From contig PMTM01000016.1 in assembly GCA_003167365.1 (NCBI GenBank), positions 1 through 61,779 of the forward strand: DNA of 61,779 bases. Direction: 5' to 3'. Made by a program: the position numbers and the translations under genes. The notes under the pieces are model-generated. The model was given only the letters and a program-made list of their open reading frames with translations, searched no databases and was not told where the DNA came from. Source of the stretch: Spartobacteria bacterium. GTDB lineage: Bacteria > Verrucomicrobiota > Verrucomicrobiia > Chthoniobacterales > UBA10450. Positions within the stretch are counted from its first letter, which is position 1, and each line of letters begins with the position of its first letter. Shown here piece after piece: positions 25,253-60,402 of this stretch.

Positions 25253-25608
25253 TGGAGGCGAGGGGAGTTGAACCCCTGTCCTCATCGCTATCCACGCAGC
25301 CATCTACATGTTTATCCGGTGTTTAGTTTTAAGGAGCCGAACGTTGCACCGGCACACTGCCGGCCCCCGAGCGTCCGCGAAATTCCTTCACCTTTCGACG
25401 CGGTCGCTCCGCCGAAAGATTAGCCTGCTGTCCACGTTTGGCGCCGTAGCAGGCGTCCAGCTCCAAACGTCACGGTCAATTAAGCCGCGAGAGCGAGATC
25501 TTGGTGATCTGCGTTTATTTGTTTTGGCTCGGTTTTTAACGAGGCCAACGAACCATCCTCGACATGCCGCCTGCGCTTCCAACAACAAGTCGAAGCCAGT
25601 ACGCCCCC
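25253..25608 (-). ncRNA. ssrA: Transfer-messenger RNA (tmRNA)
   Basis: A 356-nt one-piece tmRNA that rescues stalled ribosomes. The 5' end GGGGGCGTACTGGCTTCGAC pairs with the 3' end CGCCTCC, and the T-arm reads GGGGTTCAACTCCCC. CCA is not encoded. The tag frame ends ALAA then TAA at 25480-25482. Read back in frame it gives EPKQINADHQDLALAA (25483-25530), so the tag is probably Ala-EPKQINADHQDLALAA. The EPK start is like the tags I recall from Chlamydia, fitting a PVC bacterium. Pseudoknot regions follow the tag. The resume codon is inferred, not proven. Confidence 0.95.
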
Positions 25609-39736: not shown

Positions 39737-42172
39737 CTACCCTGCCGGTTTGGACGTTCCTGTCAAAATAGGCCGGTCCTTCCCCGCGGCGGGCGCGAGC
39801 GAAGAGATCAGATGTTCGAAGCGCGCGTCTCCACGCAAGTCAGCCCAATCGGGGCTTAGTCTGAGATAGCCGTAATGATAGGCGTGCGGCATGTTTCGGA
39901 GCGATTCTAATTTGGTGACGGCTTCCTCCTTTTGGCCGCACCAAGCGCTGATCTGCGCGGAAAAAACCGCCAGATCCGCGGCGCCAAAGGCATCGCTGTT
40001 TTTATCGCTGGCTTGAAGAGTAATCGCCCGGCGTGCCTCATCGAGAGCTTGATCTTTGCTTCCAGTTGCAGCGTCTGCTTCCGCGAGCAACATCAGTCGA
40101 TAGGGTTGGTCAGGCCGCTTCCCGAAGCTTTCCGCCAGAAACGGACGCGCTTTGCTGAAAGCATCGCGCGCAACCGATTGGTCTCCCCGCGCCCGCGCAA
40201 TCAAACCCTCAAGCCTTTCGCGCGGGTAAAGTCCTTCTTCAAACTGCTTTCGAGGGTCGGCCGCAAGCGCGCGCTCCGCTTCGTCAAACTGTCCATCATC
40301 TAGGGCGGCCACGATCCGCGTGCGAGTTATTTTTTCGGCAAATTCCGGTTGCTTGGCCAACGCCTGACAAGCGGCACGAAGACCAGCCGTTGTCCCTTCT
40401 TCATTGAGCGCGAGTTGACCACGCTCCAGCGCGAACCAGTTCGGATTCAATCCGGCCGCCGTCGCTTGATCGAGAACGCGGCGCGCGTCGTCGTAACGTC
40501 GAAGAGATCGATAAGCATCTACGAGAAAATCAACCGTGTTGCGGTCTCGCGGGCTCAATTCATAAGCTTTTTCAAGATCGACGATCATATCTTGCCATCG
40601 CCCGTCGCGTTCCGCGATTACGCCGCTGAAAAATACGGTGGGCCAGCTGTTTGGAAGTTTTTCCTGTGCCAAAGCCAATTCCTGTCGCCCGCGATAATCG
40701 TCGCGATGTTCCGAGAAATAATAAACTGCCGCGGAAAAATGCGGCGGACCTTCGTTAGGACGAAGGTGCAACGCTTTTTGCACCGCCTCCTCGGCCAGAG
40801 CAAGCCGGTCCGGCGTGTGATCGTACATTTCGTACATGCTATTCTGCGCAATGGCGAGAATTGACCACGCCCCCGCAAAATCCGGATCGCGCCGAGTCGC
40901 TTCGGTGAGCAACGTTACCCCCTGAGCAGTGTTAGCTTGCAGATCGCTGTCATGAATCCCCTCGCTGAGTAACGAACTGGCTCGCAGAAAAAGATCGTAG
41001 GCCGCTACATCGTGGGTCGGCGCCTCTTCGATTTGTTGCTTTACGGCCGGCGACAAATGCGCTTTGAGTTGCTCCGCGATCTTTTTTGCGATCTCGCTTT
41101 GGATAGCGAAGACATCGTCAATCGGACGATCGTAATGCTCGGCCCTAAGATGCGCGTCCGTTCCAGCATCGATCAGTTGCGCGGTCACGCGCACGCGATT
41201 TCCCGCGCGTTGCACGCTGCCTTCCAACACGTGAGCGACCCGAAGCTTTCTTCCAATTTCGGGGATGTTATGTGTCGATCCACTTTTGAAATCCATCACA
41301 CTGGAGCGGCTGATTACTTTCAAATCGCCGATCTTGGCCAGGTCGGTGAGAATTTCATCCTGCATTCCGTCGGCGAAGTAAGCGTTCTGTTTGTCTTCGC
41401 TCATATTTTCGAACGGCAACACCGCGATGCTCTTGGCGGAAGCCGCGCCGGATTCCGGCGGTGTCTTCGCGCGCCAGAATCTCCAAAACCCGAAAGCCAA
41501 AAGCGTGATTAGCGTCACGGCTGAAATCATCATCCAGGCTCGGCTTACTCTGTTTGTCGGGGCAATTGCGCCCGCGGTGTTTTGCTCTCTCGCCTTCTTA
41601 ATTTTTTCCGGCAACACCGGATTTCCCAGTTCGTCGGTGTAAAAATTTACAATCTCGAGGCGGACGCCGTGCTTTACTTCGACCTCGCCTAGCGAATGCA
41701 AGTGCGACTGCCACTTTCGGTATTGACCCAAATCGTCGGCAACGCGTTTCGATAACAAGATGTGTCCGTGATCTCCGCAATCCATCACCCGTTGTGCCAT
41801 GTTGATGCCCGCGCCTGCTACGTTCATCCGGTCGTTCACGTCGGAAATTGCCTCGACCGGGCCGCTGTGAATTCCCATTCGAAGTCGCAGCTGCGAATGA
41901 TCTTTTAACGCCTTGCTAATTTCCATCGCGCAGCGGACGGGCGCATCGGTGCTGGTGAAGAAAGCGAGCGCCATTCCGTCACCGGTCGGAATTCGAATCA
42001 ATTTCCCGCTCGCTTCCGCGCTTTGGAATTGTTCCGTGCCGCGCACCAGTCGAAACAATTCCTGAATCAACTCGCTCTGCTCATCTACCAATTGTTTCGA
42101 GTATCCGACAATGTCCATGAACAATACGTGCGCGATCTCTAGTTCCGAATCAGGCCTTGCTTCGATCGACAT
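39737..42172 (-). CDS. Class III adenylate/guanylate cyclase with TolB-like and TPR domains
   Basis: An 811-residue multidomain signalling protein. The N-terminal cyclase homology domain has IAHVLFMDIVGYSKQLVDEQ, RIPTGDGMALAF and LRMGIHSGPVEAISDVNDR (about residues 10-180). A membrane helix (AWMMISAVTLITLLAFGFW, near 212-230) follows, then the TolB-like segment SIAVLPFENMSEDKQNAYFA and a tail of TPR repeats from about 380. Such proteins are common in Acidobacteriota, Verrucomicrobiota and rhizobia and may sense envelope state. It lies 16 bases downstream of the decaheme gene on the same strand, so may be co-transcribed. Confidence 0.88.
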   Translation of the reverse strand: MSIEARPDSELEIAHVLFMDIVGYSKQLVDEQSELIQELFRLVRGTEQFQSAEASGKLIRIPTGDGMALAFFTSTDAPVRCAMEISKALKDHSQLRLRMGIHSGPVEAISDVNDRMNVAGAGINMAQRVMDCGDHGHILLSKRVADDLGQYRKWQSHLHSLGEVEVKHGVRLEIVNFYTDELGNPVLPEKIKKAREQNTAGAIAPTNRVSRAWMMISAVTLITLLAFGFWRFWRAKTPPESGAASAKSIAVLPFENMSEDKQNAYFADGMQDEILTDLAKIGDLKVISRSSVMDFKSGSTHNIPEIGRKLRVAHVLEGSVQRAGNRVRVTAQLIDAGTDAHLRAEHYDRPIDDVFAIQSEIAKKIAEQLKAHLSPAVKQQIEEAPTHDVAAYDLFLRASSLLSEGIHDSDLQANTAQGVTLLTEATRRDPDFAGAWSILAIAQNSMYEMYDHTPDRLALAEEAVQKALHLRPNEGPPHFSAAVYYFSEHRDDYRGRQELALAQEKLPNSWPTVFFSGVIAERDGRWQDMIVDLEKAYELSPRDRNTVDFLVDAYRSLRRYDDARRVLDQATAAGLNPNWFALERGQLALNEEGTTAGLRAACQALAKQPEFAEKITRTRIVAALDDGQFDEAERALAADPRKQFEEGLYPRERLEGLIARARGDQSVARDAFSKARPFLAESFGKRPDQPYRLMLLAEADAATGSKDQALDEARRAITLQASDKNSDAFGAADLAVFSAQISAWCGQKEEAVTKLESLRNMPHAYHYGYLRLSPDWADLRGDARFEHLISSLAPAAGKDRPILTGTSKPAG

Positions 42173-42187: not shown

Positions 42188-45100
42188 CTAGGGCGCTTTC
42201 CTTTTCGTGGACGTCTCGCTTGGGATCGCCGTAGGTTCAACCTCGGGTTCCGTTGGGAGCGTGATCGGAGTCGCGGACGGAATTGGCGTCGGGATCGGCG
42301 TCAAAGTCGTGCCGCTTTTGGTCGAGAGTACGCCGCCGGAAAGCGTCACGTCTTCCACGCGATACAATTCTCCCTTGCGTCGAACATCGACATCTTTTGC
42401 GTCGCTGATTTCCGCGCGGCGATAAAAACGTTCCATCTCATCGAGATGAAATGGCCGCGCCCCGCGACGCCCAAACACAACCGTTTGTCCACCCGTTTCA
42501 TCGACTACGCGATCGCGCTCGAGCCCGCGCGAAACGCAAATCGCTTCGCCTTTGGTGTGGTGAGTTGCGATCAACTTCGGATTCGGAAGGGGACTGAATC
42601 CCTGGGCACCTGGAACGGTGTCGGGCGAAATCAATTGCACGACGCGCAACCCATTTTTTCCATCGGCCACGAGTGCAAACTGCGAAGCGCTCACGCTCCC
42701 GATTTGCACCGCGCGGGTGTCGTTCAGCGCGCCGCCGGCGTTGAACATTTGATCGAGCCGAGGCGACTCAGGATCCTCAACATCGACAATGGCCAAACCT
42801 TCCGGACCGTTGGCGACGTAAGCATAAGTGCGCGCAACGTACAATCGTCCCGCGTTTCGCAGACGAACAGTTGCGCGCGGAAGAGGAATAGGCCGAGTCG
42901 GCTCAGTAAGATCGACAACCTTTAATCCGTCATCATCCGTGATGAATCCGTAGCGAAACTGAATGGCGATGCATCGTGGATTCTTCAGGAAATTTCCGGT
43001 GAGTTGTCCGGCGATGCGCGGATGCATCGGATCGGTTACATCGACAACGAAAAGTCCGCGCGGCGTCGTCATATAAAGCCGATGGCCGGCCGTCGCGACA
43101 AAGGTTGCACCGCTCAAGGCGCCGTCCGGATTAAAGACGACGTCCTTGTTCAGGAAATTGTCGGTGGGATTCCCGTTAACCAGCGTCGCGACATTGACGA
43201 CGACCAGGCCTTCTACCCGGTCGGAGACGAAAACGAATGCGTAGAAGGGATCGATCGGTTGCTCTTCGTTTTCCGGAATGTGCAGACGTGCCGGATCGAG
43301 CGCGAGCGTGCTTGGCAACGCTACCGAAGTTGCATAAGGCGTATGCACATACGTGCGCTGGCCAAGCGGCGAAACCGGCGAAGTGACAATGCGTTCTGAA
43401 AATCCTTTTTGATCGATGTTCGCCACATCGAAGACTTCGAACCCGCCGGGGCCGTTCGCGGTGTAAAGATATTCACCGCGCAGCACGATGTCCTGAATGT
43501 CTTTGCCGGAATGTTCGTACGCTTCCTGTAACTCACCGCCAAGATCGACATGTTTCTTGTAATTCGCCGGATACGCGATGCTGTGCAGGTGGCTTCCGAT
43601 GACTGCTTGCGGTTCATCTGCTTCCGTCCACACGACCGCGTGCAATCCCTCACGTCCTTCGCCGACATACGCGTAACGCCCGAAGAAATTCACCGTTCCG
43701 GTGCCGAAGCCGAGCAACTGTGTCATCCATGCGTTGTTGTCATTCTCCTTCGATAAATGGCAGTCCGTGCAAGTCTTGGTTGTTCCAACGCTGCTGGTGG
43801 TGTGCGGGAAATGCGGATTAAACGCCTGGCCGCTGTAACCTTCCGCGGAAAATGTTTGTTGCTGGGAGTAAACCCATTCGCGATTCGCATTCTGTGAACT
43901 GACCACGACCGCGCTGGACGATCGGATCACCGCCATCCGGTTCTTCTTCACCGTGCCGTCAATGCCGAGCATGAACACGTCGTCGCGCACGACTTGCGGA
44001 TTGTAAGTGGTGTAGTTCCGGTCGGTCACGCCTTCGAATTTGTTTTGCGGAACGCGCTGGTTCGCTTTCATCGGCAAATGGCAGCCGAAACAACTCGTCG
44101 CCCACGAGGTGTGGCAGATTTGGCAATCCATCGCCGAATTGTCATGCGCGAGTTTGACGCGCCGCTCTTCCGGCGTGGCCGGTATGACGCCGCCCCATTT
44201 GTCTTCGTCCCGTCGCAAAGTTTTGGCGTAAGCGGACTTCGGATTATAGTGCGCGGAAAGCGGATCGATCGTGTCCATCGTTTGCGGAATTTCCCAGCGA
44301 ACATCCGGCGACATGGTCGATTGCTGCCAGAGCATGTTGCCTTCCCAACTAAAGCGCGGTCCGAACGGCGTGTTGCTTGTGTGCAGCAAATCGATTTGTC
44401 CTGCGTTGCCGGAAGTAACCAGCGTGGGCCGTTGAGCGATCGTGCCGTGACAATCGATGCAATTGATCGTGGTCGCGTTGCGCGGCTCGCCGTAAAGCAT
44501 GCCGTTGCCGTGAACATCAACATCGAAATGGCAATCGGCGCACTGCATGCCCTTCGCCAGATGCACATCTTTCAAATGCACCGCTTTCGCGAATTTGTTC
44601 CGGTCGTCATTGTCGATCTTGTTGTCTTCGAGATCGAGCAAGTTGCCTTTGCGGTCGTGTTTGAAGATCGCGCGAAAGACCCAGCCGTGTCCGTGATAAT
44701 CGGCGAACTGCGTGTGCTTAAGTTGCGGGTTTAATTCCGCTACCCGATCGAGAAAATCTTTGTCGCCCCATAAACCGCGCGCCGCCGCCGCTTCCGGATT
44801 TTCCATTGTCGATCTTACAAGCTCGGCATCGGTCGGATCATGTTGCTCCTTCGGATACATGAACTCGCCGTCGGTCTCCTGGTCCCACCAGGTATAACCG
44901 AGATAGGGATTCACGAAGAGGTTTCCTTGATGCATGTGGCAATTCATGCATTGGCTTGAAGGAATCGAGCGCGTGAACTGATGCGTGATCGGATGTCCGC
45001 GCTCGGCTTTCGGAATCGTTTCGTCGGCGGTGAAACTCAGGCCTTGATGTCCGTACTTGCTCCACCAACCGGAGTTGGTCGGCGAGCGGTCGTTGGCATA

Positions 45101-46090
45101 CACAACGTGGCAGGCCGAGCATCCGCTCGATCTGTAATCGCCAGGGTGATCGTTTGATCCGAGGAAGCCAAGCAACGGATCGTGCAAGCGCGTCTTTTGC
45201 AGACCGAGAAAGACCGGATCAGTGCGATTGAGCGTGCCGAGGCCGCGCTCGGACAAACGTCGCTCCGGTTTGCCACCCGGTTCGTCGGCGGTTGGAAGAC
45301 CGAGCGAAAGTTGGTTGCGTCCGCCCTTCTCGAAAATGCGCAGAATATTTCCAGGGTTGCTCAAATTGAAACGAGGCAGCGGCTCAAGAAACGGAAGGAT
45401 GCCGTGCGTCCGTGTATCTTCACTACTCACCGGTGTGTAGTTATCCAAGCGTAGCGGAACGCCGTCCGCGCCGTAAGCTTGGCCGAAGCGGTAGTTCTTC
45501 AGATAGAAACCGCCGTTATTGTATAAAGCCGCGCCCCAGAGCATCGCGCCGTGATTCATCATGCTGTGATCGACGTTGCGAATGATGTCGCCATGACAAA
45601 GGCCGCACGATTGCTGGGCGACGCGCAGGTCGCCGGGATTCATGAAGCGAATGAATTCGGGCGACTCGTGATTGAGCCACGCGTTTGAGTTCGGCGGATT
45701 GGCGGATGTTTTCCAAAACTCTTTGTTCTTCGGCAAGATGTGCGCCTGCTCCTTGGTCAGGCCGCGCGCCGGGTTGCCGCCGTGGCAATCGGTGCACCCG
45801 AGCACGACGTTTTCCGATTTATGCATCGGCTCAACGCCCTTGTGACACTGCAAGCAGCCGATGCTCTTGGCGTTTGCTTCGGCTTGGGTTTGATCGATCC
45901 AATTACGCGGCGGTAAGGACGCGCGTGCGATTGTCGATATTGCAGCGGGGACGGAGGTCGGCGGGCCGTAGCCGGAAGTGGCGAGTTCTTGGGCAATTGC
46001 TGAACTCGAGATGCTGATAAGAAGCAGCAGAAAACGCCGAACGCCGAACGCCGAACGCCGAATGCCGAAGTCATACAACCACAAGTTCAT
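42188..46090 (-). CDS. Decaheme c-type cytochrome with LVIVD beta-propeller
   Basis: A 1300-residue exported cytochrome. Ten CxxCH haem motifs are visible: CLQCH, CTDCH, CGLCH, CSACH, CMNCH, CADCH, CIDCH, CQICH, CFGCH and CTDCH (roughly residues 70-780). From about 870 come six LVIVD-type repeats, for example GLFVVDVTDPMHPRIAGQL and GLAIVDVEDPESPRL, then a Pro/Thr-rich tail. The signal peptide is RRFLLLLISISSSAIAQ. Its basic start is encoded by the inverted repeat of the element at 46.03-46.54 kb. The start ATG overlaps the four-helix gene stop (ATGA). With the neighbouring barrel it may form an outer-membrane electron conduit; this is inference. Confidence 0.9.
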   Translation of the reverse strand: MNLWLYDFGIRRSAFGVRRFLLLLISISSSAIAQELATSGYGPPTSVPAAISTIARASLPPRNWIDQTQAEANAKSIGCLQCHKGVEPMHKSENVVLGCTDCHGGNPARGLTKEQAHILPKNKEFWKTSANPPNSNAWLNHESPEFIRFMNPGDLRVAQQSCGLCHGDIIRNVDHSMMNHGAMLWGAALYNNGGFYLKNYRFGQAYGADGVPLRLDNYTPVSSEDTRTHGILPFLEPLPRFNLSNPGNILRIFEKGGRNQLSLGLPTADEPGGKPERRLSERGLGTLNRTDPVFLGLQKTRLHDPLLGFLGSNDHPGDYRSSGCSACHVVYANDRSPTNSGWWSKYGHQGLSFTADETIPKAERGHPITHQFTRSIPSSQCMNCHMHQGNLFVNPYLGYTWWDQETDGEFMYPKEQHDPTDAELVRSTMENPEAAAARGLWGDKDFLDRVAELNPQLKHTQFADYHGHGWVFRAIFKHDRKGNLLDLEDNKIDNDDRNKFAKAVHLKDVHLAKGMQCADCHFDVDVHGNGMLYGEPRNATTINCIDCHGTIAQRPTLVTSGNAGQIDLLHTSNTPFGPRFSWEGNMLWQQSTMSPDVRWEIPQTMDTIDPLSAHYNPKSAYAKTLRRDEDKWGGVIPATPEERRVKLAHDNSAMDCQICHTSWATSCFGCHLPMKANQRVPQNKFEGVTDRNYTTYNPQVVRDDVFMLGIDGTVKKNRMAVIRSSSAVVVSSQNANREWVYSQQQTFSAEGYSGQAFNPHFPHTTSSVGTTKTCTDCHLSKENDNNAWMTQLLGFGTGTVNFFGRYAYVGEGREGLHAVVWTEADEPQAVIGSHLHSIAYPANYKKHVDLGGELQEAYEHSGKDIQDIVLRGEYLYTANGPGGFEVFDVANIDQKGFSERIVTSPVSPLGQRTYVHTPYATSVALPSTLALDPARLHIPENEEQPIDPFYAFVFVSDRVEGLVVVNVATLVNGNPTDNFLNKDVVFNPDGALSGATFVATAGHRLYMTTPRGLFVVDVTDPMHPRIAGQLTGNFLKNPRCIAIQFRYGFITDDDGLKVVDLTEPTRPIPLPRATVRLRNAGRLYVARTYAYVANGPEGLAIVDVEDPESPRLDQMFNAGGALNDTRAVQIGSVSASQFALVADGKNGLRVVQLISPDTVPGAQGFSPLPNPKLIATHHTKGEAICVSRGLERDRVVDETGGQTVVFGRRGARPFHLDEMERFYRRAEISDAKDVDVRRKGELYRVEDVTLSGGVLSTKSGTTLTPIPTPIPSATPITLPTEPEVEPTAIPSETSTKRKAP
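44609..44620 (-). repeat. Dispersed 12-mer AAGATCGACAAT, first copy in the decaheme gene
   Basis: Exact 12-mer, read as NKIDND. Two further 10-mers lie at 42908 and 43541 in the same gene. Confidence 0.8.
44805..44816 (-). repeat. Dispersed 12-mer AAGATCGACAAT, second copy in the decaheme gene
   Basis: Exact 12-mer, read as VRSTME, so a different frame from the copy 196 bases away. Confidence 0.8.
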
Positions 46091-48844: not shown

Positions 48845-48900
48845 CGCTTTTTGGCTATTTTGCGTGGCAATCCGCTTGGGATTTGATAATCCCGTTACCG

Positions 48901-50376
48901 ATGAAGCTGCGAACCTTGCTCCTCGCCTCCGCGGCAAGTCTGACCGTTTCTTCAGCATTGGGTCAACTCACGCTTGCTGACGTTCAGACAATCGTCAATC
49001 GAGCTGTGACGCGCGCCGTCGCGATCTCGCCCAACAGCGTGATCGCGGTGACGGATCGTGAAGGTTACGTGCTCGGCATCTGGAATGTGGCCGGCGGCGA
49101 ACCTACGGCGACACAAATTGCCAACGCGGTTTCTAAAGCGGGCACCGCCGTATTTTTGAGCAGCAATCAAAATGCGTTCACGTCGCGCACAGCTGGATTC
49201 ATCATCCAACAGCACTTTCCTGACGGCGTGCGCAATACTCCTCCGGGCCCGCTCGTCGGTGTCGGATTTTCCAATCTACCGTTTTCCGATGTGAACCGGT
49301 TCAAAAAAACCGACCTGATCCCGACAAGCACTTCCCCGGGAACTTTCGGGTCGCCGATTCCCGGCACATCCCTTGATGGATCGCCCGGAGGTATGCCGAT
49401 TTACAAAAACGGAATTCTCGTCGGCGGTGTGGGCGTTACCGGCGACGGCACCGATAACTCGATCCCGTTCATCTCCAGTTACGATAAAGATGAGGACGTC
49501 GCGCTTTCCGGCCAGCAAGGCTATCGGCCCTCTTCGAGCATCACGGCGGACAATGTTTTCATCAACGGTATCAGCCTCGCCTACACCGCCGTGTCGCCGA
49601 CAAGTATCACCACGATCGTCTTGCAGGGAAACGCATCGGTGCAATTTCCACTTCAAGCCGCGCCGCCGCCGTTTCCCTATCCGACCGGAACGTTTGGCGG
49701 AGTGAGTGGCCAAATTCGTCAGCCGATTATTCCCGATCCAATTCCCGGGTTGATCAACGGCCAAGCGCGCCTTACCGCCGCGGAAGTCACAAGCATTATT
49801 AATTTCGCGGCCGATCGTGTTCGCATTACGCGCTCCGGCATCCGATTGCCGATCGGGATTCAGATGGAAGCCTACATTACCGTCGTGAATTTCCCGAATA
49901 TGCCGGGCACACCGCCAACCGTGCTCGGTGCTTTCCGCACTGGCGAAGCGACTAATTTTAGTTGGGATGTGGCCGTGCAAAAAGGGCGCACCGCCGTCGG
50001 TTTCTCGAATAACGGAAACACCATGGCGATCTCGACCCGCACCGTCGGATTTCTGGCGCAGAGCAATTATCCGCCCGGCATCGATGGTCAACCTCCCGGT
50101 CCTTACAATGGGTTGCAGGAGATGCTTTCCATGCCGCCGCCCAATCCAAATTTTCCAAACGGCATCACAATTTTTCCCGGTGGCTTTCCGCTTTATCGAA
50201 ATGGCCAAATGATTGGTGCGATTGGCGTTAGCGGCGACGGTGTCGATCAAGACGACATCGTTGCGGCATCGGGCACGCAGGACTTTCTCGCGCCCGACGC
50301 AATCCGTGCCGATCAATTCTTTTTCAAAGGCACGCGGCTTCCGTACGCGAAATTCCCGCGCGATCCCGGGCTATAG
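48901..50376 (+). CDS. Exported protein with two HbpS/GlcG-type haem-binding domains
   Basis: A 491-residue exported protein. The signal peptide is MKLRTLLLASAASLTVSSAL (cut after GQ). The first HbpS/GlcG domain runs from LTLADVQTIVNRAVTRAVAI through VIAVTDREGYVLGIW to FPDGVRN and MPIYKNGILVGGVGVTGDG. The second, from LTAAEVTSIINFAADRVRIT, repeats the pattern up to FPLYRNGQMIGAIGVSGDGV. HbpS domains bind or degrade haem and respond to redox stress. It is divergent from the barrel-cytochrome operon, so a role in haem supply or redox sensing for it is plausible but unproven. The ATG at 48901 is chosen over 48883. Confidence 0.85.
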   Translation: MKLRTLLLASAASLTVSSALGQLTLADVQTIVNRAVTRAVAISPNSVIAVTDREGYVLGIWNVAGGEPTATQIANAVSKAGTAVFLSSNQNAFTSRTAGFIIQQHFPDGVRNTPPGPLVGVGFSNLPFSDVNRFKKTDLIPTSTSPGTFGSPIPGTSLDGSPGGMPIYKNGILVGGVGVTGDGTDNSIPFISSYDKDEDVALSGQQGYRPSSSITADNVFINGISLAYTAVSPTSITTIVLQGNASVQFPLQAAPPPFPYPTGTFGGVSGQIRQPIIPDPIPGLINGQARLTAAEVTSIINFAADRVRITRSGIRLPIGIQMEAYITVVNFPNMPGTPPTVLGAFRTGEATNFSWDVAVQKGRTAVGFSNNGNTMAISTRTVGFLAQSNYPPGIDGQPPGPYNGLQEMLSMPPPNPNFPNGITIFPGGFPLYRNGQMIGAIGVSGDGVDQDDIVAASGTQDFLAPDAIRADQFFFKGTRLPYAKFPRDPGL

Positions 50377-52929: not shown

Positions 52930-53838
52930 CTAGAACGCGCCGTGCAACGAAATCATTCCGTACGGCGCGCCGCCATCTTCGTTAAAGCGGATATGGGCGC
53001 GATAGAAGTCGAAGCTTCGATACGGCTGATAACCAGCCTCCGTTGTCAGCGTCAGGACCGGCGAGATTTTCCAATCGAGGCCCGCCCCCGTTCGCACTTC
53101 ACTGTAACTGAGCACAGCATGATCGAGTCGCGGATTTCCGCGTGCGTCGCCAAAGCTATCGTCCACCCGAAAATTCGTCTCTATGATATTTGCGCCAACA
53201 GACAGCGTGACATCTTTGTTCCATTCAAACTCGATTTGCGGTTTCGGCAAAACGGCGTCGATCACCCACTGCCGCGAAACTTTCCAGCGAACACCGGCGG
53301 CTGGAAGCACTGGATGTTTTCGCTCAATGTCGACGCTGACGCCAGCGATAAACTGCAAGTTGGGATTATAAATGTAGGTGCCGCCGGCGACGAACGGCAT
53401 ATTGAAGTCGTCCGACATGCTTTCGACGCCGGTGTTGTAAGCGCCGGGCTGGGCTTCTACTCGAAGGAGGATGGAATCGGAAATTTGCGTATCAAGTCCT
53501 ATGACCAAGCCGACCGATTGCAGTGTGTCCGGAATATGATCGGTGTTGGAAACGCTGAAACCGAATCGCTCCCATTCCAAGCCCAGCCGCAATATCCCAA
53601 AGCTGACTCGCGGAGTGAAGACGAAGCGCAGGATAGAATCGTTTTCATCAAAGTTGTTCACGGACTGGCCGTTTCTCCTGTGAACGTCGCCGGAACCGAC
53701 GTAAGTTTCTTCGGCTAGGTATTCGCCGGAAAAACCAAACAGGCCCGGTTCTTCCACTGCTTCTTCAGCCAGCGTCGGCCCGCTCAGCCAGCAAAGGCCG
53801 AGCAAAGCCGCGACGAAGTGGAAAGATCGACGATTCAT
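52930..53838 (-). CDS. Outer-membrane beta-barrel protein, DUF6268-like (pair 1)
   Basis: A 302-residue protein with a signal peptide (FHFVAALLGLCWLSGPTLAE) and regularly alternating strands ending in MISLHGAF, a terminal Phe typical of barrels. The stretch KHPVLPAAGVRWKVSRQW and LSYSEVRTGAGLDWKISPVL aligns with DYPVLPLAGLVWRPNDEW and VDYSEYRANAGFVYSPCQNF of the protein at 59500-60402, so the two are paralogues. It follows the secreted protein gene at 53842 by three bases. Function unknown; could be a channel or lipid-anchoring barrel. Confidence 0.75.
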   Translation of the reverse strand: MNRRSFHFVAALLGLCWLSGPTLAEEAVEEPGLFGFSGEYLAEETYVGSGDVHRRNGQSVNNFDENDSILRFVFTPRVSFGILRLGLEWERFGFSVSNTDHIPDTLQSVGLVIGLDTQISDSILLRVEAQPGAYNTGVESMSDDFNMPFVAGGTYIYNPNLQFIAGVSVDIERKHPVLPAAGVRWKVSRQWVIDAVLPKPQIEFEWNKDVTLSVGANIIETNFRVDDSFGDARGNPRLDHAVLSYSEVRTGAGLDWKISPVLTLTTEAGYQPYRSFDFYRAHIRFNEDGGAPYGMISLHGAF

Positions 53839-53841
53839 TCG

Positions 53842-54897
53842 TCAACGCCCGCCGTTGTCGCGCCGGAAAAGTGTCACCGCTTTGGAAATGTCTTTCACCA
53901 TGGCAGATTCAGAACCTAGCCGCTCGACGCCGTGGAGCGACGCGAGCGATGCGGACGAAATCATGTCACCCCGCCAGACAAGAGTCGATGCCTTTCCTTC
54001 GACCGTTACCGGCCACATCTGATAAAGCGCGAGCGCGACGTAATAGCCGCCGCTCGCGTAATAAAGAATGTCGGCGGCCTGGTAAGTTCCGCCCGCACCG
54101 GCGCGACTGTAAAACCCGCCTAGCGTGAGCACGCCGCGATCGTCCACTTCGAGAAGTTCCCAATACAATTCCGGAGAGAGCGATCCGGCGCCACGGCCAA
54201 TTCCGGTCTGGCCGAGGAAACCGGAAAACTGGCGGCGAATTTTCTCCTGTTGTTTCAGCAGTGAATTCGCCTCCTCGTTCGGACGAATCGAATCGCCAGT
54301 GTGATCGTACGGCTGCTGCGCCGACGTTCCGCCTTTGATGAAACTTGCCGCGCGCCCGGCCAGAATCTCGCTCCAAAATGTGGCGACCGCCTGAGGCATC
54401 GCGCCACCACCGCTCGCGTTGGTAGCGGAAAATCTTTTCGCTTCATCCTTACTGATTTGAAGCTCGGAACTGACTTTTTGTGTGGCGGCGACCAGCGTGC
54501 CGACAGCGCTGTTGTCCGGCGCACTCTTGAGCTTGGCGAAATTTGCCGGGCTGGGGGAGTTGGGAAGATCGGAGTGTAGAAAAACTTTTAGTTCGCTATG
54601 TTTGGTCGGGTTCCATTTCCGAAGCGCTTCGATCTGTTGCGCCGGTGAGCCCGACGCAACGTAACAACTTTGTACGGACAGAAATTGCCCGTTCATGGGC
54701 GGGCCGTGCTCCGTTCTTACATTGCTCTTCGCGAGTTCTGCGATGTCGATCTTGTCGAAAATGGAGAAACCGGCCAGCTCGCTGGCCGGATCGGCCAGAG
54801 CGATTGTCGATCTTGTGATGAGAAAGGCAATGAGTGCGGCGGCGACGGAATTCGTGGGGCGAAGACGCCGGAAAGCTCGCGGGATTTCAGATTTCAT
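53842..54897 (-). CDS. Secreted hypothetical protein of a duplicated two-gene module (pair 1)
   Basis: A protein of about 351 residues with a signal peptide (VAAALIAFLITRSTIALADP). It shares with the protein at 58464-59480 a W..TKH.E motif (RKWNPTKHSELKVFL), FWSEILAGRAAS, LYQMWPV and the end MVKDISKAVTLFRRDN. No known family is recognised. It is encoded with a DUF6268-like barrel gene three bases downstream, the same partnership as in the second module in reversed order. ATG at 54897 is preferred to 54951. It carries the 10-mer at 54744 and 54805. Confidence 0.7.
   Translation of the reverse strand: MKSEIPRAFRRLRPTNSVAAALIAFLITRSTIALADPASELAGFSIFDKIDIAELAKSNVRTEHGPPMNGQFLSVQSCYVASGSPAQQIEALRKWNPTKHSELKVFLHSDLPNSPSPANFAKLKSAPDNSAVGTLVAATQKVSSELQISKDEAKRFSATNASGGGAMPQAVATFWSEILAGRAASFIKGGTSAQQPYDHTGDSIRPNEEANSLLKQQEKIRRQFSGFLGQTGIGRGAGSLSPELYWELLEVDDRGVLTLGGFYSRAGAGGTYQAADILYYASGGYYVALALYQMWPVTVEGKASTLVWRGDMISSASLASLHGVERLGSESAMVKDISKAVTLFRRDNGGR
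54803..54814 (-). repeat. Dispersed 12-mer AAGATCGACAAT, copy in the signal peptide of pair 1
   Basis: Exact 12-mer encoding RSTIAL within the signal peptide; another 10-mer lies 61 bases away, read as DKIDIA. Confidence 0.8.
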
Positions 54898-54968
54898 GAG
54901 TAAAGAATAACTATTCGTCGTGACGGATGGTTGCAAATAGGCGGGCATCATCGCAATAAAGAATCCAG

Positions 54969-55919
54969 ATGAGCGAGCCAGTCATTGCCCTAAACAGCCT
55001 GAGCAAGAGCTTTGGCAATGTGCACGCGGTGCGCAATGTGTCACTCACAATCGATGCCGGCACCATCTTCGGGTTTCTCGGCGCGAACGGCGCGGGCAAA
55101 ACCACGACCATGCAAATGCTTTGCGGGTTGACCCATCCCACGGGCGGCACCGCTTCGATTGCTGGTCACGAGGTTTGGAAAGATCGGCATCTGGTGCGAA
55201 CGAAATTCGGTTATGTCGCGCAACGCTTCAGCCTTTATCCCGATCTTACCGTCGAGGAAAATCTTCGCTTCTTTGGCGGCGCCTGTCGGGTGCCGGCAGG
55301 CGAACTCAATGAACGCATCGAACGTCTGCTCGGTTTGACCGATCTCGAGCCAAAGCGGACGACTGCCGCCGGAAGTTTGTCCGGTGGGATGCGTCAATTG
55401 CTCGCCTTGGATTGCGCGCTGATCCACGATCCGCTGTTGCTTTTCCTGGATGAGCCAACGGCTGGCCTCGACCCGGTTCATCGCCAACAAATTTGGAATT
55501 TGCTCTACGATTTGAGCAGCCAGGGCAAGACCATCTTCGTCACTACACACTACATGGACGAAGCGGAACGGTGCACGGAAGTTGGCTTTCTCGATAGCGG
55601 ACAGCTTCTGGCCAAGGCTTCGCCACGGGATTTGAAGGAAAGCTTTAACGCACGATTGCTCGAGATCGATGTCGAACCGGTCATGCCGGCATTGGTTCGG
55701 TTGCGCGATGTTCCCGGTGTCCTTGGAGTTTCCTTGCGCAGCGGAAGTTTGCGGATTTACGCGCCGCATCCCGAGGAGTTGATGGCAAAGTGGCGCGCGA
55801 ACTGGCCGTTTCCGGACATCCGTTTACTGGGTGACCGCCTGGTCGAGCCCGACATGGAAGATGTTTTTACCGCGTATTCGCAGCGTTACGACACGCTCTT
55901 GAAAAGATCGACATCATGA
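54969..55919 (+). CDS. ABC-2 type exporter ATP-binding protein
   Basis: A 316-residue ATPase of the NodI/YbhF/CcmA-like class. Walker A is GANGAGKTTTMQMLCGL (about residues 39-55), signature GSLSGGMRQLLALDCALIHD, Walker B LLLFLDEPTAGLDPVHRQQ and switch FVTTHYMDEAERC. The C-terminal 90 residues form the usual regulatory DUF4162-like tail. With the following permease it would export drugs, lipids or polysaccharide parts. It ends with a 10-mer copy (55904-55913) and overlaps the permease start by four bases. It is divergent from the secreted pair gene. Confidence 0.9.
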   Translation: MSEPVIALNSLSKSFGNVHAVRNVSLTIDAGTIFGFLGANGAGKTTTMQMLCGLTHPTGGTASIAGHEVWKDRHLVRTKFGYVAQRFSLYPDLTVEENLRFFGGACRVPAGELNERIERLLGLTDLEPKRTTAAGSLSGGMRQLLALDCALIHDPLLLFLDEPTAGLDPVHRQQIWNLLYDLSSQGKTIFVTTHYMDEAERCTEVGFLDSGQLLAKASPRDLKESFNARLLEIDVEPVMPALVRLRDVPGVLGVSLRSGSLRIYAPHPEELMAKWRANWPFPDIRLLGDRLVEPDMEDVFTAYSQRYDTLLKRSTS

Positions 55920-57103
55920 AAGGAACATCTCTCAGCGCGATCGCGAGCGTCGCTTACAAAGAATTTCTGCACATTTATCGCGACCGGCGCGTTCTCGTGC
56001 TCCTGCTCATCCTGCCGCCGGTCTTCACTCTCATTTTCGGTCACGCCTTTGAGGCGGATGAAATGACAAACGTGCCCGCGCTCTTGATCGATCGCGACCA
56101 CACGCCGCGCACGCAGCGTTTCATCGACATCGTGGAAAAGAACAAAACTTTTCAATGGGAAAAACTGCCGGCCGAAGTGAAGGACGAATCCGATCTGCTC
56201 AAACACCACGTCTGGGCTTCGCTCGTCTTGCCCGCGGGCTGGAGCGATTCGCTGGCAAAGGGCGACCCGCATCCACTCATTCTTTATCTCGATGGCAGCG
56301 ACACGAACACGGGTTCGGCGCTCGAAGGGAGCGTGCAAAAGAGCTTGGCCGATTTTCAATTGAAGGAACGCGACGCCATGATCGAGACGTTGCCCGACGA
56401 TGTGATTGAGCTTGGCAAAAAACTTCCGGTCGAAATCCGCAAGCAATTCGTCTCACTCATGGAGGCGTGGTCGGTCGAGAGCAGGATTCTTTACAATCCC
56501 AAGACGCGCTTCATCGATTATGTCGTGCCGGGAATCATCGGTCTGATTTTGCAACTGCTCACCGTGACACTCATGGCCTGCACGATTGCGCGCGAGCGCG
56601 AATCGGGAACGCTTTACCAATTGATGGTCACGTCGCTGCGACGCGGCGAGATCGTCATCGGCAAGATCTTGCCGTATCTCGCCGTCTCAATCTTCCTGAT
56701 CGTCGTGATTCTGGCGCTGGCCTGGTGGCACTTCGATGTCCGATTCCATGGGATGCCTGCGTTGGCTGTCATTTGTTTTCTTTTTCTGCTTTGCTCGCTC
56801 GGTCTCGGTCTGCTCATCTCCGCGATTTCCCGGACGCAAACGCAAGCCATACAATTTTCCGTGTTCTTCCTGCTCCCGGTCTTCGTCCTGTCGGGCGCGT
56901 TCGCGCCACTCGATCAACTGCCGAAATTTATCCGCTACGTTTCGGAACTTTTTCCGCTCACCCATTTCTGTCGCGCGTTTCGGCTGGTAAACATGTATCA
57001 CGCGAGCGTTTCGTTTTACGCGGTCGATCTTGTTGTGCTCCTGGCCGGCGCGCTGATCACCTTCGCCGGCGCGGCCTTTCTTTTGAAACGAATCGAACAA
57101 TAA
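55916..57103 (+). CDS. ABC-2 type exporter permease
   Basis: A 395-residue inner-membrane permease of the YhhJ/YbhR type. An N-terminal helix (RVLVLLLILPPVFTLIFGHAF) precedes a large periplasmic domain (about 45-185). Five helices follow, including VVPGIIGLILQLLTVTLMAC and the conserved IARERESGTLYQLMVTSLRR with ELFPLTHFCRAFR. Start overlaps the ATPase gene (ATGA). The exported substrate is unknown. Intact, with normal length for a half-transporter that dimerises. A separate HlyD-like adaptor usual for YbhFSR is not present here. Confidence 0.9.
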   Translation: MKGTSLSAIASVAYKEFLHIYRDRRVLVLLLILPPVFTLIFGHAFEADEMTNVPALLIDRDHTPRTQRFIDIVEKNKTFQWEKLPAEVKDESDLLKHHVWASLVLPAGWSDSLAKGDPHPLILYLDGSDTNTGSALEGSVQKSLADFQLKERDAMIETLPDDVIELGKKLPVEIRKQFVSLMEAWSVESRILYNPKTRFIDYVVPGIIGLILQLLTVTLMACTIARERESGTLYQLMVTSLRRGEIVIGKILPYLAVSIFLIVVILALAWWHFDVRFHGMPALAVICFLFLLCSLGLGLLISAISRTQTQAIQFSVFFLLPVFVLSGAFAPLDQLPKFIRYVSELFPLTHFCRAFRLVNMYHASVSFYAVDLVVLLAGALITFAGAAFLLKRIEQ

Positions 57104-57162
57104 CTCCGTCGCATTCCTCACAAAAGCTTGACGTTACGCGGCGAGCTCAAAAGAATCGCGCC

Positions 57163-57849
57163 ATGAATACTCTCCCGATTGCACTACCTAGATTACTCGC
57201 AGTTCTTGCGACTGCGTTGCTAGTTATCCCATCGTTTGCGCAAGGCCAAACGTCTGCACCCGCGACCAGCCCGGCGGCCAGCGCTAGTCAAACCGCCGCG
57301 ACTGGACAACCGAACCCGGCCGAGATGATGAAGCAGATGATCGAGCTGGCGAAGTTGAACGACAACCACAAGCTGCTCGCGAACTTGGCCGGCACTTGGA
57401 GTTACAAGGTTAAATTCTGGATGAACCCCGATCCGAAAGCGTCGCCGAGCGAATCATCCGGCACTTCCGTTACTAAGGCGACGATGGGTGGGCGTTACTT
57501 CGTCACCGACGTCACCGGCATGATGAAGATGCCCGGCGCGGACGGCAAAATGAAAGATGTGCCGTTCAAAGGCATGTCGCTTGATGCCTACGACAATGCC
57601 AAACAGAAATTCACGTCTTCGTGGATCGACAATATGGGCACCGGCATCATGGCGTCAGAAGGCACCTACGATCCCGCGACCAAGACATTCACCTACAACG
57701 CGGAAATGGAAGTGATCCCCGGCATGAAGCAAAAGGTCCAGGAAATGATTAAGATTGTCGATAAAGACCATCACACCTTTGAGTATTACGAGGACCGTGG
57801 CGGCCAGGAAGCGAAGACAATGGAAATCAACTACACCCGCAAGAAATAA
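57163..57849 (+). CDS. DUF1579 exported protein
   Basis: A 228-residue protein with a signal peptide (LLAVLATALLVIPSFAQGQT), an Ala/Ser/Thr-rich linker (about residues 28-48), then a DUF1579 domain. Family marks are LAGTWSYKVKFWMNPDPKAS, a GRYFVTDVTG strand, FKGMSLDAYDNAKQKFTSSW and GTYDPATKTFTYN. DUF1579 folds as a lipocalin-like barrel of unknown ligand. The ATG at 57163 is used; the open frame extends far upstream over the permease gene, which is out of frame and clearly not coding. A hairpin terminator follows. Confidence 0.85.
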   Translation: MNTLPIALPRLLAVLATALLVIPSFAQGQTSAPATSPAASASQTAATGQPNPAEMMKQMIELAKLNDNHKLLANLAGTWSYKVKFWMNPDPKASPSESSGTSVTKATMGGRYFVTDVTGMMKMPGADGKMKDVPFKGMSLDAYDNAKQKFTSSWIDNMGTGIMASEGTYDPATKTFTYNAEMEVIPGMKQKVQEMIKIVDKDHHTFEYYEDRGGQEAKTMEINYTRKK

Positions 57850-57883
57850 TCAGTCTTTCGCCGACTCAGTTTTAACAAAGTCC

Positions 57884-57923
57884 GGGCCAGCCGCGCCGTC
57901 GCAACGGAGGCTGGCCCTCTTTG
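57884..57923 (+). terminator. Probable hairpin terminator after the DUF1579 gene
   Basis: GGGCCAGCC (57884-57892) pairs with GGCTGGCCC (57909-57917), followed by TCTTTG. Stem of nine pairs with a 16-base loop; the T-run is short. Confidence 0.55.
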
Positions 57924-57997
57924 TCCCTAGAATTCCGCCTCGGTGTCTAAATTCCGCGCCTGGCTGGCTTTTTCCCGGATCTCGGCTATGGTTTACA

Positions 57998-58357
57998 ATG
58001 TCCAAACCATCTGGTGCTACCTTCGCGCGTCGGGCGCCCGACAACATCACTGAAGAGCTTGTTGCGGTGCTTTCTTCCAAGGCCTCATTTGAATTCAAGG
58101 CCCTGTTCGACATTATCTTCCTCAATCTCAAGGAACGGAATGCTGCCAGTGGAGGGGAAGAGATGCTGCGCTTGCGCACCTATGAAAAGCTTCAGAGCCT
58201 CGTCAGCCAGGGCACGGTCACGAGAACGGTCAACGGTATCACCAAGAAATATAAGGGCGTCGCGGCGCGACTAGTCACCCTAAACGCGGAGATGAAAGTC
58301 TTACGTGCCGAATGGGGCCAGAAGCTTCTGGCCAAGGCTGCCGCTGCCAGGAGCTGA
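57998..58357 (+). CDS. Small conserved-looking hypothetical protein
   Basis: A 119-residue soluble, basic, helix-rich protein (MSKPSGATFARRAPDNITEE). The middle EEMLRLRTYEKLQSLVSQGT and VTRTVNGITKKYKGVAARLV look like a well-conserved core with several Lys/Arg, suggesting nucleic-acid or ribosome contact. No family is recognised. The frame is open upstream from 57755, but the ATG at 57998 marks the start of compositional regularity. It is preceded by a terminator hairpin, so probably has its own promoter. It is not in an obvious operon. Confidence 0.65.
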   Translation: MSKPSGATFARRAPDNITEELVAVLSSKASFEFKALFDIIFLNLKERNAASGGEEMLRLRTYEKLQSLVSQGTVTRTVNGITKKYKGVAARLVTLNAEMKVLRAEWGQKLLAKAAAARS

Positions 58358-58463
58358 TTGCCACCGCTCGCCGGGCTTTCGAAAGCATTTAGCGTTTAGC
58401 GGTTAGCTCCGAAGGGTTCGCGAGATGAGTTGTGGAGGGGTTGATCGGGACGTTGCAGAGTGA

Positions 58464-59480
58464 CTACTTCTCGACGTCGCGACGGAACAATTGGATCGCT
58501 TTAGCCGATTCTTTCACCATTTCTTTTCCGGCAAAGAAGCGATCGGCGCCGCCGAGATAGGATCGGAAGGGCGCGGATACGAAATCGATTTGCCAAACGA
58601 GCGTTCCATTCTCGACTGGAAACAATTCGTAGAGCGTGATCGACATGAAATAGGTGTCGGAGGTGAAATAGGTACAATCGGCCAACTGCCACGATTTCAT
58701 TTTTTGCGCGCAGAGAAATCCAGTATGCACGGTGGTATGGCCGCGCACGAGGTTTTGCTGCCAGTAAGGCACGATGACGTCGGCGGGATTTCCGTCTCCG
58801 GCAAACGGACGGGCGCCGATCAGCGGTTGGAAATGCGCGGCAACTTTCGGAGCGAGCTTCATCAATCCGTCGAGCTCGGCGCGAATGGACATGTCGAGGT
58901 AGGAAGCGGAAAAATGCGGGAGCGCGTTCAATCCGCCGGATGCGAGCGCCTTGTCGCGGGACGCGAGAATGTTCTTCCAGAATTCAACAACTTTGGCGTC
59001 GCGTTGATTCAGTAAAGCTCCAGTCAGACGCGCGGCGGCTGCTTCATTCGCCGTCACGAACAATTCGCCAGGCTTTCCGGTGTTCAGAGTTTGCCAGGTG
59101 TGATCGATCAACCATTTGTCTTTGGCATGATCGGAACTGAGCGCGAGCGAGTCGAAAACATTTGCTGGTGTGGGCCAGTTGTATTCGCGCAGGAGCGAAA
59201 TCTCGAATTCCGGATGTTTCGACGTGTCCCAATGCAGCAATGTTTCACCAACAGCCGGCAATGATGCGCGCACAAAAAAGCAGGACTCGACGTAAACGCC
59301 GCGCGGAAAACTTCCGAGCGGACCGCGCACGCCCGCGATTTCGCCGCGCTTAAGTTTGTCGAGATCGAGCGCGGGTAATCTCGACGCCGAACGAATTTGG
59401 TCGATCGGACTGCCGGCAAATGCCACGCCGAGCGGTAATATTGTTAAGACGCCACAGAGGGCGAGGAGATACAGCCGCAC
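58464..59480 (-). CDS. Secreted hypothetical protein of a duplicated two-gene module (pair 2)
   Basis: A 338-residue protein with signal peptide MRLYLLALCGVLTILPLGVA. Shared marks with the pair 1 protein are HWDTSKHPEFEISLL, VEFWKNILASRDKALASGGL, TLYELFPVENGTLVW and the end MVKESAKAIQLFRRDVEK. No known domain is recognised; extended beta content in the C-terminal half suggests a periplasmic or surface protein. It lies 19 bases downstream of its barrel partner on the same strand. The repeated association suggests the two proteins act together, for instance as cargo and outer-membrane channel. Confidence 0.7.
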   Translation of the reverse strand: MRLYLLALCGVLTILPLGVAFAGSPIDQIRSASRLPALDLDKLKRGEIAGVRGPLGSFPRGVYVESCFFVRASLPAVGETLLHWDTSKHPEFEISLLREYNWPTPANVFDSLALSSDHAKDKWLIDHTWQTLNTGKPGELFVTANEAAAARLTGALLNQRDAKVVEFWKNILASRDKALASGGLNALPHFSASYLDMSIRAELDGLMKLAPKVAAHFQPLIGARPFAGDGNPADVIVPYWQQNLVRGHTTVHTGFLCAQKMKSWQLADCTYFTSDTYFMSITLYELFPVENGTLVWQIDFVSAPFRSYLGGADRFFAGKEMVKESAKAIQLFRRDVEK

Positions 59481-59499
59481 TTTCCGAGCCTAAGCTAAT

Positions 59500-60402
59500 T
59501 TAGAACTTCGCGCTGAACTCAAGCCGCAGGAATGGCGCGGGATCGGAGCGGAAATAATAATCGGCGCGCGTAAATGCGAATTGGCGCTGAATAGCGTAAC
59601 CGCCGGCTAGATCGATTGAAAAATTTTGGCAGGGCGAATAAACGAAACCAGCGTTCGCCCGATACTCCGAGTAATCGACCTGTGCACCATCGAGTTTGCG
59701 CGGAAGAATCGTCTGGTCGTGATCGGTGCGAAAAGAGCCACCTGCCAGTTCGCCGCCCGCATAAACTTCGAAACTCTTCGTCGGCCGATAAGTCAGGCGC
59801 GGTTCCGGGACAAGGGCACTAACTTCCCACTCATCGTTTGGCCGCCAAACCAAACCGGCCAGAGGCAGGACCGGATAGTCGCCGCGAAGAAAATCCGCGT
59901 TCGCGCCCACGAAAAGGTAGAGATGGTCCGGCTGCAAAGTGAAGGCGCGTCCCAGAGTGATCGGCGCGTCGAAAGATGCGATGCCGATATGTTCTTCGGT
60001 ATAGAAGCCAGGTTTGACCCAGATGAACGCGCCGAGATCGCTCCCATGCATGTAATCGACGCCGATGATGGCGGCCATGCTTTGCAAGTGCACCGGAACC
60101 GGCGCGACGGTGTGGCCGAAATCAAAACGGTTGTAAGCAAGGCCGAGACGCAGATAAATCGGGTCTTTGATCAGAAACCGGTGGTTGTATTCGAACCGAC
60201 TTTGAAACGAATACTGTTCGCCGAAACTCACGCCGCCGTGCACAAGGTTGCTCTCGAAAACGTAACTGCTCTCGGTCTCGACCCAATCGGTCGAAATTTT
60301 TTCCTCCGAACTCGATCCGGCGGACAACTCCGGTTCCGTAGCGGCCAGCGCCGTACCAGTCACGGACAAGCTGGCGAGAAGAGAGAGAACGGCGAATTTC
60401 AT
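59500..60402 (-). CDS. Outer-membrane beta-barrel protein, DUF6268-like (pair 2)
   Basis: A 300-residue barrel with a signal peptide (MKFAVLSLLASLSVTGTALA). It has alternating strands throughout, such as YLRLGLAYNRFDFGHT, FAFTRADYYFRSDPAP and a terminal Phe (LRLEFSAKF). It is a paralogue of the barrel at 52930-53838 (see the shared VLPxAGxxW and YSExRxxAG stretches). First gene of the pair 2 operon, upstream of the secreted partner, the opposite order from pair 1. Function unknown. Confidence 0.75.
   Translation of the reverse strand: MKFAVLSLLASLSVTGTALAATEPELSAGSSSEEKISTDWVETESSYVFESNLVHGGVSFGEQYSFQSRFEYNHRFLIKDPIYLRLGLAYNRFDFGHTVAPVPVHLQSMAAIIGVDYMHGSDLGAFIWVKPGFYTEEHIGIASFDAPITLGRAFTLQPDHLYLFVGANADFLRGDYPVLPLAGLVWRPNDEWEVSALVPEPRLTYRPTKSFEVYAGGELAGGSFRTDHDQTILPRKLDGAQVDYSEYRANAGFVYSPCQNFSIDLAGGYAIQRQFAFTRADYYFRSDPAPFLRLEFSAKF

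Follow-up and report, generated by a model that had tools for sequence, protein, structure and literature searches.

A secreted protein (secA), the outer-membrane barrel encoded directly behind it (barrelA), an ABC ATPase and an ABC-2 permease form a conserved four-gene unit in the Chthoniobacterales. Based on this genetic unit, whose members co-occur, adjoin and are missing together, and on two predicted folds, the module is proposed (with a probability of roughly 0.5) to be a trans-envelope transport or export route for a hydrophobic cargo, in which a START-like carrier replaces the adaptor protein.

The window analysed is a whole contig of 61.8 kb from a 3.13-Mb genome. All four secreted-protein and barrel genes are open reading frames, each on the minus strand, where the first-pass annotation had placed them, and the locus is composed of the following features:

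52930..53838, minus strand: barrelA, an outer-membrane beta-barrel (DUF6268) with a signal peptide and a C-terminal Phe, encoded second in the secA operon
53842..54897, minus strand: secA, a secreted protein of predicted START-like fold with a helical insert; its stop codon lies 3 bp before barrelA
54898..54968, no strand: divergent intergenic region between secA and the ATPase gene, 71 bp, with a palindromic TTGCAA at 54931-54936
54969..55919, plus strand: ABC ATPase (DrrA/RbbA-type; PF00005, 110 bits), divergent to secA
55916..57103, plus strand: ABC-2 permease (PF12698, 159 bits, cut-off 31.6), with a 4-bp overlap with the ATPase stop
57163..57849, plus strand: DUF1579 gene (PF07617, 131 bits), a lineage-specific insertion outside the module
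57998..58357, plus strand: 119-aa ORF, family unknown, with no Pfam match; probably outside the module
58464..59480, minus strand: secB, a divergent secA paralogue 3' of barrelB, restricted to genus g12 and the genus of the window
59500..60402, minus strand: barrelB, a barrelA paralogue, present at the locus also in module-less relatives

The two secreted proteins are paralogous (28% identity over 326 columns, E 2e-30, BLASTP), as are the two barrels (30% identity over 226 columns, E 4e-26), and the order within the pairs is swapped, all as had been proposed initially. In transcription order, pair A runs from secA to barrelA with 3 bp between them and pair B from barrelB to secB with 19 bp between them, while the plus strand between the pairs carries the ATPase, the permease, the DUF1579 gene and the 119-aa ORF. 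An apparent Sec signal peptide without a lipobox can be read at the start of both secreted proteins and both barrels, and a search of the genome itself returned no additional copy of either the secreted protein or the barrel. The DUF1579 gene had zero tblastn matches in 20 regions of relatives and is an insertion specific to this lineage. A secA start further upstream, at 54951, was rejected, as the conserved TTGCAA would then fall within the gene and the alignment of relatives begins at the 54897 codon. The TTGCAA motif occurs in 24 of 34 homologous secA/ATPase spacers, compared to 0.72 expected from shuffles, and may provide a common -35 element for divergent promoters that overlap. When the spacer region was scanned with the sigma-70 consensus, the number of sites was not above that of shuffles, and the TTGCAA sites did not stand out. 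Elsewhere in the window there are a 1300-aa protein that contains LVIVD repeats and weakly matches multihaem cytochrome c3/c7 (42188-46090), a protein with two HbpS-like (haem-degrading) stretches (48883-50376), an adenylate/guanylate cyclase domain fused to TolB-N and TPR-type regions (39737-42172) and a tmRNA gene with the tag ADHQDLALAA (25253-25608).

A search for secA-type genes in the window's own family covered 83 genomes, 46 of which were positive. In 43 of the 46, secA is directly followed by barrelA in the same orientation, with a contig end in the other three, and outside the family the same pair was found in 15 genomes of the order. A further three loci outside the family hold the secreted gene and the exporter with no adjoining barrel, and three divergent copies of the secreted gene have neither partner (flanks read for all but G110:C445). 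The secreted protein and the barrel are thus the stable neighbours that had been claimed; the converse, that most homologues of the secreted protein would be without a barrel, was checked with the same neighbourhood counts and is not the case. In genus g23, a separate divergent clade of the secreted protein (L148:1653-2573 and L150:6770-7687) has no barrel or exporter recognised nearby. In another relative, at L144:6878-9809, the secreted gene, a barrelA-type and a barrelB-type gene lie in tandem and the exporter is found with a second copy of the secreted gene on contig L145.

The exporter between the two pairs is no bystander. It belongs to the unit: its co-occurrence with secA is near-perfect and the two are usually divergently adjacent. 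In an order-wide search, permease orthologues (at least 53% identity) were cleanly separated from paralogues (at most 34%), and the secreted family was present in 69 genomes and the orthologous permease in 65. Both were found in 62 genomes, the secreted protein only in seven, the permease only in three and neither in 141 (Fisher 1e-41), where a few cells are uncertain, as the former search covered 213 genomes and the latter 210, and related genomes are non-independent. The mismatches that can be inspected are contig breaks or have exporter genes beside the secreted gene: in all three permease-only genomes the module is broken off at a contig edge, in four genomes with only the secreted protein (G069, G052, G103 and G152) exporter genes adjoin it, and the other three (G048, G143 and G155) represent fragments or contig-edge pieces.

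Beyond the order, a 387-genome sample of the phylum yielded six distant relatives of the secreted protein, one with an adjoining barrel and five without a recognised partner; four of these belong to a single genus, with genomes of 2.2-2.5 Mb. At L189-L192 (four genomes, one genus of the class), the secreted gene is without a barrel or exporter and lies between glycosyltransferase-like and panB-looking genes. Relatives of the secreted protein that carry names are from Verrucomicrobiota MAGs with labels such as Chthoniobacterales, Spartobacteria and Candidatus Udaeobacter.

As reported in the first-pass annotation, the secreted proteins have no recognised family, with nothing at E<=1 in Pfam or NCBIfam, and a family profile searched against the sequences of solved structures returned chance matches only (best E, 0.21). 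An AlphaFold (AF2) model of secA built from 41 sequences (pLDDT, 89.6; pTM, 0.85) is predicted to have a START-like fold. Foldseek placed START-type proteins on top with weak E-values (2e-3) and, after realignment, the best match was 3qsz, a bacterial (Xanthomonas) START protein (Z, 11.6), followed by Z values of 10.9 for both the CERT START domain and a CoxG-type protein. All 50 structural matches listed possess a START/Bet v 1-type fold (Z, 10.1-11.6). In the predicted model, strands at 243-315 and a C-terminal helix at 323-347 make up the helix-grip core shared with these START/SRPBCC proteins, from which secA differs in being secreted and in a mostly helical insert of ~130 residues that follows the strand at 105-111 (precursor ~112-240). 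secA is termed START-like here, and not assigned to START/SRPBCC, because no curated sequence profile for these proteins matched it. The predicted fold points to the carriage of a ligand.

The description of both barrels as DUF6268-like (PF19783) applies to barrelA, which at 29 bits exceeds the gathering cut-off of 22.8 bits, and fails for barrelB (14.9 bits), which is too diverged for the Pfam model and is tied to DUF6268 solely via its homology with barrelA. The barrelA model (AF2; pLDDT, 85.6) has its best structural matches in OmpG (Z, 16.9) and CymA (Z, 15.6), and channels for hydrocarbons and fatty acids are among the matches, though not at the top (CymD, TbuX and TodX, Z 14.3-14.5; FadL, Z ~14), such that a porin-like barrel of the OmpG/CymA/FadL kind is predicted. 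In the literature searched, DUF6268 is mentioned in a single paper, which concerns Akkermansia adhesion. Barrels of the DUF6268 type are often present without the module; what sets the barrels of this locus apart is the accompanying START-like partner and exporter.

From the genetic unit and the predicted folds, we infer the binding, the direction and the cargo of the proposed transport route as follows. The ABC-2 exporter would bring a hydrophobic molecule, probably a lipid, to the periplasmic side of the inner membrane. There the START-like protein would accept it in its helix-grip pocket, perhaps using the helical insert as a lid or docking part. The loaded carrier would then ferry the cargo across the periplasm to the DUF6268 barrel, which may either receive it in the outer membrane or pass it through. 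Counting against this proposal are the weak Foldseek E-values for START, the occurrence of START-like folds in enzymes and sensors, the DUF6268-type barrels present without the module, the three loci with no adjoining barrel and the relatives in one genus of the class that have the secreted protein alone.

In a rival reading, the same parts handle a different cargo. The ATPase possesses the Walker A (GANGAGKTT), signature (LSGG) and Walker B (LLFLDEP) motifs and, together with the permease, represents an ABC-2 exporter of the same ATPase and permease families as RbbA-YhhJ and DrrAB; the top NCBIfam models are drrA and RbbA for the ATPase and RbbA/DrrB for the permease. A DrrAB-like exporter could serve in detoxifying efflux of hydrophobes that are toxic or antibiotic; the START-like protein would catch the drug in the periplasm and the barrel, predicted to resemble monomeric channels, would provide the exit. 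Multidrug resistance is described for Candidatus Udaeobacter, a member of this group (PMC7343977). However, passages of that study name MdtABC and MacB and not the module locus, the scores of both exporter proteins for these drug families are below the curated cut-offs, and no HlyD-type adaptor or TolC-like gene occurs among the classified neighbouring genes. Of the genes classified between 50.6 and 61.2 kb of the window, none encodes a membrane-fusion protein, though a remote gene is possible, and the place of such a protein alongside the exporter is occupied by the START-like protein and the barrel. Efflux is considered unlikely as the role of the module. A plasmid search with the ATPase DNA returned only short matches to other ABC ATPases, and PADLOC gave no match to a defence system.

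An outer-membrane assembly or secretion pair had been suggested at first. In such a pair the secreted protein would be a chaperone or plug for the barrel, and the 3-bp spacing in the window and the adjacency in nearly all relatives would suit such a role. The predicted START-like fold is unlike known barrel chaperones and suggests the carriage of a ligand and not barrel assembly, and the linkage of the secreted protein with the exporter is no looser than that with the barrel, three loci having the exporter and no barrel, making this role improbable. It is similarly improbable that the genes only share an ancestral neighbourhood with no joint function. Most members of the family are indeed syntenic over long stretches that take in the MFS and amidase genes on the flanks, but the module genes are absent jointly while the flanks persist (at the module-less L076-L079 the flanking genes are intact and barrelB is alone at the site), stay in the same genomes when unlinked (G101, G110 and G112 have all kept the secreted gene and barrel on one contig and the ATPase and permease on another), and in another family are still linked, though arranged differently; at L118, L119, L153-L155 and L157 the secreted gene, barrel, ATPase and permease all run in one direction. 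Many of the structural matches to secA are PYL-type hormone receptors, yet these matches reflect a common fold, no linked signalling gene was found and the barrel is not readily explained, so that a ligand sensor controlling the exporter or barrel, in place of a carrier, is very improbable.

Pair B has a history of its own, for which a duplicated two-gene module is too simple a description. In the barrel tree, the barrelA and barrelB clades are split at 100/100, and the barrelB clade takes in a gene from another family of the order (G106), located in tandem behind a secreted gene and barrelA; as the clade spans this other family, the barrel duplication probably dates back at least to the origin of these families. 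secB branches deeply (100/100), separate from every secA in the order, on a long branch that makes its exact place unsure. A recent duplication of the whole pair is rejected by the trees of both the secreted protein and the barrel. barrelB usually occurs without a secreted partner, and the barrelB-secB pair is limited to six genomes in two genera, with secB kept in only two of the 14 genera of the family (the window genus and g12). The two genera have the pair at the same site and are not neighbours in the secA tree. This distribution suits an early presence of secB in the family followed by repeated loss, and transfer is a possible alternative. Under the proposed transport route, secB and barrelB would represent an older, diverged carrier and barrel branch for a related cargo, perhaps served by the same exporter.

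With regard to the cargo, the candidate to consider first is a triterpenoid such as a hopanoid. Squalene-hopene cyclase (SHC), counted at a threshold of ~300 bits chosen so that split genes count, is present in 64 of 72 genomes with the module (the three permease-only genomes being classed as carriers) and 58 of 141 without it. Within family f4 the proportions are 10 of 11 and 7 of 29 (p 2e-4), while in the window's own family nearly all genomes have SHC, whether they carry the module or not (p 0.38), so the module is not needed for hopanoid synthesis. The association is confounded by kinship, with genera that cluster, and a hopanoid cargo is a lead only. A carotenoid cargo was rejected, as the phytoene desaturase crtI is not associated with the module (odds ratio, 1.05).

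The RND transporter HpnN, which belongs to a different transporter superfamily than the module, has been proposed to place hopanoids in the outer membrane, and most hosts of the module carry SHC. None of the 210 order genomes pass the HpnN cut-off (TIGR03480). This absence was rejected as proof of a vacant role, as MMPL/RND proteins with partial HpnN similarity occur in 202 of the 210 and hpnN has been reported, by the criteria of that study, in Verrucomicrobia having hpnFG, including Chthoniobacter flavus (PMC9543262); another hopanoid route beside the module is possible. One parallel in organisation is the BstABC sterol transport of Methylococcus capsulatus (PMC10942540), where a polycyclic lipid in a Gram-negative bacterium is handled by an inner-membrane transporter with separate carriers. 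The components differ. BstABC combines an RND protein (BstA) with a phosphonate-type binding protein (BstB) and a TRAP T-component-like protein (BstC), whereas the module pairs its ABC-2 exporter with a protein of START-like fold and a barrel; known lipid routes that have separate carriers, BstABC being one example, rely on other folds. It is tentatively suggested, as a rather doubtful extension of the transport proposal, that an ABC-2 exporter, a free START-like shuttle and a DUF6268 channel constitute a new architecture for moving lipids across the Gram-negative envelope. Chthoniobacterales-type Verrucomicrobiota would use it for the placement of hopanoids or other triterpenoids, and a few genera would possess a second set of carrier and barrel.

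The module is real and conserved, and no published description of it was found in the literature searched; it is likely an undescribed form of ABC-linked transport across the cell envelope. A protein family without a name, from soil bacteria that are abundant, thereby gains a predicted fold, a set of partners and a role that can be tested, and one branch of DUF6268 becomes part of a defined module and is no longer an orphan barrel. The locus further suggests that proteins of START-like fold can serve an exporter as periplasmic shuttles and, if the cargo is a hopanoid, would bear on how bacteria without a clear HpnN place their hopanoids.
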